DNA of 64,000 nt from Synechococcus sp. UW140 (GTDB lineage Bacteria > Cyanobacteriota > Cyanobacteriia > PCC-6307 > Cyanobiaceae). Location of the stretch: contig NZ_UCOB01000010.1 of assembly GCF_900474295.1 (NCBI RefSeq), positions 1 through 64,000 on the forward strand. The letters are read 5' to 3'. A model generated the notes under the pieces. It saw only the letters and a program-made list of their open reading frames with translations. It was not told the origin of the DNA and made no database searches. Of the stretch, positions 31,986-45,836 are shown piece by piece. Position numbers and translations under genes: made by a program. Within the stretch, counting starts at the first letter, position 1, and every line of letters begins with the position of its first letter.

Positions 31986-32291
31986 ATGGAAAATAGCAAA
32001 AAACAAATCAAGGCCTGGATTCGATCTCAACACCTAATATGCGAAGGAACTGATTTTGTTTTTGAGACAGTCGATCAAACACAGCTTGAGAAATTTGAAC
32101 AGTGTGTTGAATCAATTGGTGGACGAGTGAGGACTGTGAAAGCAGTGGGGAATTGGCCCATGGGTCCTAACAGGTCATTTAAAATCCTAAGAGCGATCGC
32201 CAGTGTACCCAGACCTGGGGGAGAAGAACTCGTCACATACTGGGCAAAAAAAGGAAGCAATCAGACACGATACTCAGACATCAATACCTGA
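31986..32291 (+). CDS. cpeR: CpeR, activator of phycoerythrin gene expression
   Basis: A 101-residue protein with the CpeR pattern: KKQIKAWIRSQHLICEGTDF near the start and WPMGPNRSFKILRAIASVPR in the second half. In freshwater chromatic adapters CpeR is required for expression of the PE structural genes in green light. Here it closes the cpeC-to-cpeR array, three bases after cpeT. It converges with the Nif11-like genes with no space for a terminator. How it acts on transcription is unsettled in the family. Confidence 0.88.
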   Translation: MENSKKQIKAWIRSQHLICEGTDFVFETVDQTQLEKFEQCVESIGGRVRTVKAVGNWPMGPNRSFKILRAIASVPRPGGEELVTYWAKKGSNQTRYSDINT

Positions 32292-32292
32292 T

Positions 32293-32514
32293 TCAGTCGT
32301 CAAACCAACCCAACCATGTTGGCTTTGAAAAATCAGTGTGCTTGCTCCATTTTCGCAGAATCGCAAGTGAATCAACTGAAAAACCCCTCGCCTGCGCAAT
32401 GGATATAATTTCATCTTGGTTCAATGCCGCCTTGATCTCATCCCTCAAAGACTGATCCGAACGAGCTTGAGTAATAAAATCCTCAAGAATCTGATCCTGC
32501 TGAGCATCAGACAT
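32293..32514 (-). CDS. Nif11-like small protein 1
   Basis: A 73-residue protein with a Nif11-type helical domain: EDFITQARSDQSLRDEIKAA followed by EIISIAQARGFSVDSLAIL matches the Nif11 pattern of a short acidic helix, a DEI..IA motif and a GF segment. Nif11 domains are found both in stand-alone proteins and as leader regions of peptide natural products. No double-glycine cleavage site is visible here and the tail (WSKHTDFSKPTWLGWFDD) is short. It is the last of three tandem genes that oppose cpeR. Confidence 0.72.
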   Translation of the reverse strand: MSDAQQDQILEDFITQARSDQSLRDEIKAALNQDEIISIAQARGFSVDSLAILRKWSKHTDFSKPTWLGWFDD

Positions 32515-32549
32515 GGCTATTAAAAGTCAGGTAGTCAACAATGCAGGGC

Positions 32550-32846
32550 TCAAGACCGACCGTCTCCAGCGCCTTCCATCAGCATAGCTCTCCAGCAAGA
32601 CAGTTGACGAAAAGCCCACGACCAGTGGCAAGGATCCGCCTGACGCACAGACTCTTGAACAGCTCTTTCCTGACTCAAGAAATCCTGGTCATACAAATCA
32701 GACCAATCCGAGGCAGTGAAATCAAAGCCCTGACTTTGCCCATAAGCAATAATTTGTTCATGCGTGGCAAGCCCCTTAAGACCTGTAGCCAGCTCATGGG
32801 AGCGGACGACTTCATCAATAAAGCGATGTAACTCCTTAGCAGACAT
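32550..32846 (-). CDS. Nif11-like small protein 2
   Basis: A 98-residue protein with a Nif11-type domain (ELHRFIDEVVRSHELATGLK; EQIIAYGQSQGFDFTASDW) and a Trp-rich C-terminal part. The ATG at 32846 shares one base with the upstream stop (TGATG), a strong sign of coupled translation and the reason for preferring it over ATG 32864. No precursor-peptide cleavage motif is seen. It sits in the middle of the three-gene minus-strand set. Confidence 0.7.
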   Translation of the reverse strand: MSAKELHRFIDEVVRSHELATGLKGLATHEQIIAYGQSQGFDFTASDWSDLYDQDFLSQERAVQESVRQADPCHWSWAFRQLSCWRAMLMEGAGDGRS

Positions 32847-33166
32847 CAGCAACTCTCGATCCAAACCGCAAAATTTGCTTTTTTGCAGATCATTTGCAGA
32901 ACCAAAGGACCACCGGGGCAGCGAAGTAGGCGCCAGGGTATCTCCTGGTTCGTCACGCCAGAATTCACAAGGATTTTAGGGGGCAGAGTCGCCTGATCCA
33001 AGGGGATCACAGCAGCACCTGTCAGAGTAGAGTCAACCGATTGAACGAGGTTACGAAGAGAATCAATCTCTTCGACTTGGTTGAACTGGTCCTGAAGTGA
33101 GGGCTGAGAAGCGATTGCATCGACAAAACGGTGCAAGGCTTGTTCCGCTTCAGCAGAGACAGGCAT
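32846..33166 (-). CDS. Nif11-like small protein 3
   Basis: A 106-residue protein starting MPVSAEAEQALHRFVDAIAS, with a helical beginning that resembles the Nif11 start (HRFVDAIASQPSLQDQFNQV) but a weaker match afterwards. The C-terminal half (VIPLDQATLPPKILVNSGVT) is not recognised. An upstream ATG at 33211 is possible. It heads the tandem set and is divergent from the mpeY/mpeQ-type lyase gene, about 120 bp away. Confidence 0.62.
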   Translation of the reverse strand: MPVSAEAEQALHRFVDAIASQPSLQDQFNQVEEIDSLRNLVQSVDSTLTGAAVIPLDQATLPPKILVNSGVTNQEIPWRLLRCPGGPLVLQMICKKANFAVWIESC

Positions 33167-33287
33167 AATACGCAAGTATCTGTACAGAAGATTACCAGAT
33201 ACAAGCTGCACCCATTCAAAGCTGGCACTGTTACAAAGAGGTGCAAGCTGGAGGTGCTAATTTTCGAAGAATGAAGCCACGTCGGTC

Positions 33288-34481
33288 ATGTCTGAAAGAT
33301 TCGATATTTTATTTGAGGGGCTTCCAGAAGAGAAAGCGCTGGAATTACTGAGAACCAACCCCGAAGAGCTATCCAATCCAGTCGAGAAATACACAGCAGC
33401 AACAAGGCTGGCTGCCTGTCGTAGCGATCGATCACTAGAAGGTTTGATCGAAGCCATTGAGCTAGATCCAGAAAATCTGTTTAACCGGATCACAAGGCGT
33501 AAGGTTCTTGAAGCGCTAGGAAGACGACGAGATCCAAGAGCTTTGCCAGCACTTTTTACAGCTCTAGGGTTTGACGACGAAGCATCGGTGATCAACGCCG
33601 TGGATTCGATAGCACAAATTGGAGCCCCTCTTAGCAACCATCAAAGTGAGCAGCTCCTTTCTGCACTCAATGGCAGCGACAACCAGAAGCGTTCCGTGAT
33701 TCAAACCCACGCTCGTCTTGGCATCGCCTCCGGAGAACAAGCGATTGCGGCCCTAGAACGGGATGACAACCCGCTCGTTGCCGGCGCAGCTCGGGCTTAT
33801 GCAGCCAAGGTGCATGGCCAATTCGACCAACTCGCCCCCCTGATCCCGCAGCTGACCGATTCGATTGCCGGTCGACGGCGGGCCGCTGTGATCGACCTTG
33901 GCGATGCCGGTGACGTCAGCGTTCTGCCCCATCTCGTGACGTGCCCGGTGTCGATGCCGTTGCGGGCGAAAAGTGCGTTTCAACTCGTCGATCCCCAAAA
34001 GAGTGGAACGGTTCCGATCGCGCACAGCGACCTCATCATTCAACTCCTGCAAGACGACCCTTCAACGCTTTCACTCCAGCACGACTGGATTTGCAGCGAA
34101 GAGATCGCGGAAATCGAAAAAAACCTGCAGCACAGGGATGAAGGTAAACAATACGGGGGAGCATTAAGCGTGATAAAAATGCCGAAGGGGCAACAACTCG
34201 ATACAATTGATCACATCCATTCGCGCTTCTGGAGTGATTACGGAGTCAACTATCTGCTGACGGCAGTTGTTGGCCTTCAGGGCCTACAAGAACGTAGTGA
34301 TCTTGTCCGCACCGCCCTGGCTGAGACGCTGCCGCAGTACGCCAAGTCACGCGTAGCAGCAGCTTGGTCCTGCCTGAGGCTAGGGCTGAAAGACCAGGTA
34401 GAGCCGCTTATGCAGATTCAGCAGACGACAAGCTGGCTGCCTCTCAAATGGAGCTGCGAGCAAGTCCTGAAAGGGTTGTGA
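33288..34481 (+). CDS. HEAT-repeat bilin lyase, MpeY or lyase-isomerase MpeQ type
   Basis: A 397-residue E/F-type lyase with HEAT-like repeats ([35 protein letters not shown]-like units; [20 protein letters not shown]). A conserved middle reads [15 protein letters not shown], and [20 protein letters not shown] follows. This is the CpeY/MpeY family. Directly upstream of mpeBA the resident gene is mpeY (adds phycoerythrobilin to Cys83 of alpha PE-II) or, in blue-light specialists, its paralogue mpeQ (adds phycourobilin). The two cannot be separated here from memory, so no symbol is given; MpeQ is favoured by the rest of the region. Confidence 0.82.
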
Positions 34482-34643: not shown

Positions 34644-35216
<573 letters not shown>

Positions 35217-35262: not shown

Positions 35263-35760
35263 ATGAAGTCCGTCATCACCACCGTTGTCGGCGCAGCCGA
35301 CAGCGCTTCCCGTTTCCCCTCCGCCTCCGACATGGAGTCGGTGCAGGGTTCAATCCAACGCGCTGCTGCTCGTCTCGAAGCTGCTGAAAAGCTTGCTTCT
35401 AACTACGACGGCATCGCTCAGCGCGCTGTTGACGCTGTGTACGCCCAGTACCCCAACGGCGCCACCGGCCGTCAGCCCCGCAAGTGCGCCACCGAAGGCA
35501 AAGAGAAGTGCAAGCGTGACTTCGTTCACTACCTGCGTCTGATCAACTACTGCCTGGTTACCGGCGGCACCGGCCCTCTGGACGAGCTGGCCATCAATGG
35601 TCAGAAGGAAGTCTACAAGGCTCTCAGCATCGACGGTGGCACCTACGTTGCTGGTTTCTCCAACATGCGTAACGACGGTTGCTCACCTCGTGACATGAGC
35701 CCCCAGGCTCTGACCGCTTACAACACCCTGCTGGACTATGTGATCAACTCCCTGGGCTGA
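35263..35760 (+). CDS. mpeA: Phycoerythrin II alpha subunit
   Basis: A 165-residue alpha subunit with three bilin cysteines: Cys75 ([10 protein letters not shown]), Cys83 (KEKCKRDF) and Cys140 ([10 protein letters not shown]). The extra Cys75 is the hallmark of PE-II, because PE-I alpha (CpeA here) carries only two. It is cotranscribed with mpeB (46-bp gap) and ends at a strong terminator. Cys83 is the target of the upstream MpeY/MpeQ-type enzyme. Confidence 0.97.

Positions 35761-43739: not shown

Positions 43740-43743
<4 letters not shown>
43510..43743 (+). CDS. Small coiled-coil protein at the head of the pebAB operon
   Basis: A 77-residue protein (MTDQIDQAPTVEELQESIEE) with heptad-like helices (ELSAYRERLYNDVVGLGKKL) suggestive of a coiled coil. 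A longer frame back to 43453 is possible. Its stop overlaps the next gene start by 4 bp, so it is translated together with the CpcS-family lyase. The function is unknown. Confidence 0.7.

Positions 43744-45836
<2,093 letters not shown>

Follow-up and report, generated by a model that had tools for sequence, protein, structure and literature searches.

The main pigment protein for blue light in open-ocean Synechococcus is phycoerythrin II (PEII). The Nif11 domain is otherwise known from the precursors of peptide natural products, in which it serves as a recognition tag. Both are involved in three small genes, unk7, unk8 and unk9, which were catalogued in the PEII sub-region by Six et al. 2007 (PMC2246261). 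These authors found the genes in PEII strains only, detected the Nif11 motif (PF07862) in Unk7 and Unk8, and concluded from the fusion of Unk7 and Unk8 in strain WH7803 that the two proteins form a heterodimer. A further Nif11 gene, unk10, was later placed in the colour-acclimation island by Humily et al. 2013 (PMC3877281). Nearly two decades after the cataloguing of 2007, our search of the literature found no function for unk7-9. There are six possible sites of attachment in PEII, and a lyase is thought to be required for each; some of the lyases in turn rely on chaperone-like proteins; CpeZ, for example, helps the phycoerythrin lyases (PMC7948978).

Three tandem genes on the minus strand of the 64,000-nucleotide stretch of Synechococcus sp. 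UW140 analysed here (the window) are the unk9, unk8 and unk7 of Six et al. As originally predicted from the sequence, unk9 (33166-32846, 106 aa), unk8 (32846-32550, 98 aa) and unk7 (32514-32293, 73 aa) lie in this order between cpeR and mpeY, with a one-base overlap (TGATG) between unk9 and unk8. They share with the published genes their position, size range, PEII-only occurrence, the Nif11 motif in two of the three, and the Unk7/Unk8 fusion in WH7803. Because Unk7 and Unk8 are the fused pair of WH7803 (PMC2246261), and the second and third genes are those fused there, the first gene is Unk9; that the third gene and not the second is Unk7 was assigned by gene order. At the WH7803 locus (L092, 9001-9887), unk9 and the unk8-unk7 fusion share one strand, which differs from the “fused/inversed” listing by Six et al. 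The cluster, its link to PEII and its Nif11 motif are thus already known, and the original prediction that a tie between Nif11 domains and phycoerythrin would be new was overtaken by Six et al. and again by the report of unk10. What we add is the apparent Nif11 origin of Unk9, the link with pebA-pebB seen in the deepest branch of PEII, the persistence of the genes after loss of mpeY, and a far larger genome sample than that of Six et al.

The gene order and strand of unk9, unk8 and unk7 are kept in 17 of 18 aligned loci, the exception being genome G049, which has unk9 and unk8 only, and also in 27 named loci. Comparison of the window with a relative of 81-87% identity (L046) gives dN/dS values of 0.07 for unk9 and 0.14 for unk8, which indicates purifying selection. 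At one end of the cluster, unk7 lies 1 bp from the end of a convergent plus-strand gene (31986-32291), which occupies the cpeR position and is named accordingly; it matches no Pfam or NCBIfam model. At the other end, 121 bp (33167-33287) separate unk9 from the divergent mpeY (33288-34481, plus strand), which encodes a PEII lyase of the CpeY family and is followed on the same strand by mpeB (34680-35216) for the PEII beta subunit and mpeA (35263-35760) for the alpha subunit, with its extra cysteine near position 75. The intergenic region presumably contains the promoters of both unk9 and mpeY.

This layout might suggest that the three proteins control PEII gene expression, acting from the divergent region shared with mpeY, or that they are partners of CpeR or of FciA/FciB, which regulate colour acclimation, given that the genes are divergent from mpeY and adjoin cpeR in most genomes, and that unk10 sits with fciA/fciB (PMC3877281). 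We nevertheless regard such a regulatory role as unlikely. A motif search of the divergent region revealed no conserved motif, and profile searches of the three proteins revealed no DNA-binding domain. Moreover, the genes are located away from cpeR in genomes G002 and G049 and in a clade with the genus label g9, and the oldest branch has unk9 behind pebA-pebB, as described below.

Profile searches with the Nif11 model, which had been proposed as a check, returned matches and upheld the view that two of the genes are clear members and the third a weaker one. Against PF07862, with a curated cut-off of 23.8 bits, Unk8 scores 47.0 bits (E = 3.2e-12) and Unk7 scores 37.6 bits (E = 2.8e-9), whereas Unk9 falls under the cut-off at 20.6 bits (E = 5.5e-4). 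However, the Unk9 relative in clade g9 reaches 43.4 bits and aligns with Unk9 over its full length, including the Nif11 part, with the QAT, WR and G positions in common. Therefore, Unk9 appears to be Nif11-derived too; its first half has drifted and its second half is conserved.

In all three proteins the most conserved blocks sit in the C-terminal tails. In Unk9, Nif11 helices that have diverged occupy about residues 5-44, and the C-terminal part is a conserved domain rich in beta structure, with the consensus IPLxQATxxxKIxVxSG...WRxLRCPGGPLVLQxIC...FAxWIExC. Unk8 has its Nif11 domain at residues 1-48 and then a conserved tail, HWSWAFRxxxxWRxxLMxG, and Unk7 has its domain at residues 10-48 and then the tail DFSxPTWxGWF. 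A weak similarity of Unk7 to tryptophan-dioxygenase (E 0.02-0.06) was taken as chance. The AlphaFold model of Unk9, which is confident (pLDDT 87.8), has three N-terminal helices and then a beta-rich part of five strands. This model has no match in the PDB at E ≤ 0.001, the best being at E 0.14; a faint resemblance to fatty-acid-binding-protein barrels (E from about 0.5 upwards) was disregarded. For the fused Unk8-Unk7 protein (pTM 0.48), the Unk8 half is well predicted and the relative placement of the halves poorly, and a Foldseek search with this model retrieves the leader structure 9zn4 only at E 4.9.

The NCBIfam leader model TIGR03798 would name two of the three proteins as precursors of ribosomally synthesized and modified peptides (RiPPs), with Unk8 (37.6 bits) and Unk7 (33.0 bits) both above its cut-off of 32.3 bits and Unk9 under it at 14.1 bits. 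Genome mining has also placed Nif11 precursors near photosynthesis genes (PMC10783134). The domain of Unk8 and Unk7 is indeed the same as that of Nif11 leaders such as those of the prochlorosins and MppE (PDB 9zn4), and profile matches to the MppE leader by sequence are found for Unk8 (E 7.8e-7) and Unk7 (E 3e-4). Unlike Nif11-leader precursors, Unk7-9 have no cut site, variable core or LanC-like maturase, as a first reading of the sequence had held, for the maturase within the window. None of the alignments contains a double-glycine cleavage site with a tail after it, and the sole GG, in CPGGPLVLQ of Unk9, is inside an invariant block. The core-peptide-like tail is likewise missing: mean pairwise identity is higher in the tail than in the Nif11 part for Unk9 (70% versus 39%) and Unk7 (75% versus 50%), while for Unk8 it is 48% versus 46%, with the last 28 residues at 65-75% per block. 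Prochlorosin cores, by comparison, are not conserved (PMC10783134). As for a maturase, no LanC-like gene (PF05147) exists in the whole genome, a search confined to this family. On the basis of the conserved tails, the missing cut site and the lack of LanC, we reject the precursor reading, which is strongly disfavoured and to which we give hardly any credence; the NCBIfam precursor label for Unk8 and Unk7 is misleading here.

Other Nif11 genes are present in this genome. In contig region G000:C23:43635-47992, a Nif11 gene of ~107 aa that fits unk10 lies 3 kb from an mpeZ-like gene. The two match a CA4-A colour-acclimation island, which suggests that the organism is a CA4-A strain of pigment type 3dA. 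Unk10 resembles the proteins studied here in being a Nif11 protein linked to PEII biology, but its tail and locus differ, and it occurs in CA4 and high-PUB strains and not in all PEII strains (PMC3877281). Two further genes are precursor-like (G000:C8:79595-79735 and G000:C3:61546-61686; L002 and L003), each encoding a GG motif with a short tail after it; the two tails are nearly identical and both end in GVGNSGL, in a genome without a LanC-like gene. Finally, two Nif11 genes ~5 kb apart (G000:C6:206001 and G000:C6:200679; L001 and L006) encode proteins that have in common a PGEY motif, placed at the C-terminus or close to it, which resembles the conserved GEYH/N tails described previously (PMC10783134).

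We assessed the association with PEII across 300 Cyanobiaceae genomes, calling PEII by MpeA of at least 75% identity. Sixty genomes have such an MpeA; the other MpeA matches listed are at most 63% identical, as expected of phycoerythrin I (PEI) and other alpha subunits. Unk8 is found in 50 of the 60 PEII genomes, which are all 50 of the main lineage, and in every one of these 50 unk8 lies on one contig with mpeA and no more than 6 kb from it. None of the 240 genomes without PEII has Unk8, a weak match in G269 that contains a stop codon being counted as spurious. Genera g1, g10 and g44 hold both states, and within them Unk8 and MpeA are present or absent together; these within-genus contrasts are the stronger evidence, because relatedness makes genome counts non-independent. 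Full-length Unk8 and Unk9 were also not found outside PEII Cyanobiaceae among 291 genomes of the class, the residual weak matches covering mainly the Nif11 part or containing stops. Thus, unk9-8-7 did not prove to be independent of PEII, and the tie is strong.

Several other associations were examined. Carriage by phages was rejected: phage records hold no relative of Unk9 or Unk8, and scans of viral contigs yielded none for Unk9 and just a 9-residue match for Unk8. Dependence on cpeR was ruled out by G002, in which the mpeA-mpeB-mpeY block, with unk9-8-7 nearby, is away from cpeR. In this genome (L060, 15089-16468) a gene for a 459-aa HEAT-repeat protein lies between mpeY and unk9, and its product may be another protein of the lyase family that belongs to the PEII set. 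Whether the three genes were transferred together with mpeBA into RCC307 was addressed with a concatenated Unk9-8-7 tree, whose support is too weak for this question.

The remaining 10 of the 60 PEII genomes, all of clade g9, give no Unk8 match. Profile searches of eight g9 genomes found neither Unk8 nor Unk7, a lone weak match to the Unk7 profile (in G149) being the Unk9 gene. Divergent Unk9 is found by profile search in eight of the ten g9 genomes, and the two without a match are 72-73% complete. Therefore, Unk8 and Unk7 are not needed for every PEII, since g9 manages without both. The g9 loci examined have a G+C content of 57-63%, and from genome features and the published mpeBA position (PMC6363710) the clade is probably Candidatus Synechococcus spongiarum, a group of sponge symbionts. 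In an MpeB tree rooted on CpeB, the two g9 genomes included group with G049 (99/94), and this group is sister to all other PEII (99/95).

The products of pebA and pebB make phycoerythrobilin. In clade g9, unk9 is located directly 3′ of pebB in eight of eight cases. On long contigs, one strand carries mpeY together with a pentapeptide gene, and the divergent strand carries a CpeS-like lyase gene followed by pebA, pebB and unk9, with mpeBA and linkers on a separate contig (loci L063, L064 and L104-L113). G049 has the order pebA-pebB-unk9-unk8 with start/stop overlaps, adjoining mpeY-mpeB-mpeA. Unlike these genomes, which have homologous pebB, the source genome of the window does not have unk9 behind pebB; its CpeS-like lyase gene, pebA and pebB are at 43740-45836 on the plus strand. 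The original prediction considered a structural or regulatory role, and the comparative evidence, in particular the order pebA-pebB-unk9, points rather to pigment supply or attachment, or to subunit assembly. A structural role would make the proteins caps or linkers in or on PEII rod hexamers, for which their strict PEII specificity would be appropriate, as would their small, conserved tails, which are rich in tryptophan and suited to contacts between proteins. We consider this quite improbable: profile searches gave no linker domain for any of the three proteins, although they readily identify the linkers encoded in this cluster, and the coupling to bilin synthesis that is seen in g9 and G049 agrees better with biogenesis.

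Unk8 and Unk7 are encoded in a single open frame in seven loci (L054-L060), and likewise in WH7803, suggesting that they act as one unit. The genes are also separable from mpeY. In G289 (L050) and G271 (L025), mpeY is gone from beside mpeB, and in G295 (L073) it is present as a broken remnant; at L071 it is missing between mpeB and unk9. G289, G271 and G295 each retain an mpeZ-like paralogue elsewhere in the genome, and unk9-8-7 are intact in all three. Between the two mpeY-less loci L050 and L071, dN/dS is 0.14 for unk9, 0.10 for unk8 and 0.02 for unk7, the last value being based on a dS near saturation. The losses of mpeY in the three genomes probably represent two separate events. Because unk9-8-7 stay intact and constrained after these losses, they do not serve MpeY alone, and a role as MpeY-specific partner is rejected. 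The mpeY-less genomes are in effect natural mpeY knock-outs, and they may be of a fixed high-PUB pigment type.

The explanation that fits best is that unk9-8-7 encode small cytoplasmic accessory proteins for making PEII, a biogenesis factor, because the genes travel with PEII, survive the loss of a lyase, and are coupled to phycoerythrobilin genes in the deepest branch. We propose this tentatively, giving it somewhat less than an even chance, and the step from genomic context to mechanism is inferential. Each protein would join a Nif11 helical domain to its own conserved C-terminal motif, and Unk8 and Unk7, as one unit, would work with Unk9, presumably in a physical complex in the cytoplasm. 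Acting as an adaptor or chaperone, the Nif11 domains and tails might hold unfinished PEII subunits, newly made phycoerythrobilin, or both, while lyases (MpeY, MpeZ or others) attach the pigment; the partner would accordingly be a subunit or a lyase. The kind of action proposed for Unk7-9 resembles that of CpeZ, which helps lyases to work on phycoerythrin subunits, but CpeZ belongs to the lyase clan, has HEAT repeats and acts on both PEI and PEII (PMC7948978), whereas Unk7-9 are Nif11 proteins specific to PEII. Weighing against the biogenesis reading, a neighbourhood in the antenna cluster is common to regulators and structural proteins too, clade g9 dispenses with Unk8 and Unk7, and the model of the fused protein has a low pTM. 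It is also conceivable that PEII-specific small helical proteins tag one pigment protein for removal, and thus act in quality control or turnover of PEII when light changes or nutrients are limiting. We judge this very unlikely, as profile searches show no similarity of the three proteins to degradation proteins, and the gene order is with biosynthesis genes and not stress genes.

A more specific history of the biogenesis factor can be imagined, although we think it has a rather low chance of being correct. Nif11 would have been recruited in the PEII ancestor to serve permanently as an adaptor when pigment is attached, with Unk9 coming first, at the end of the phycoerythrobilin operon, and passing bilin or a lyase to PEII subunits; Unk8 and Unk7 would have been added as a partner unit.

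Our results narrow the function of these genes, which are not peptide precursors and not MpeY-specific, which in the deepest branch of PEII are tied to the supply of bilin, and of which unk8 and unk7 seem to work as a single unit. If the adaptor reading is true, Unk7-9 would represent a role for Nif11 outside peptide natural products, and they would be a missing part for PEII production in other hosts.
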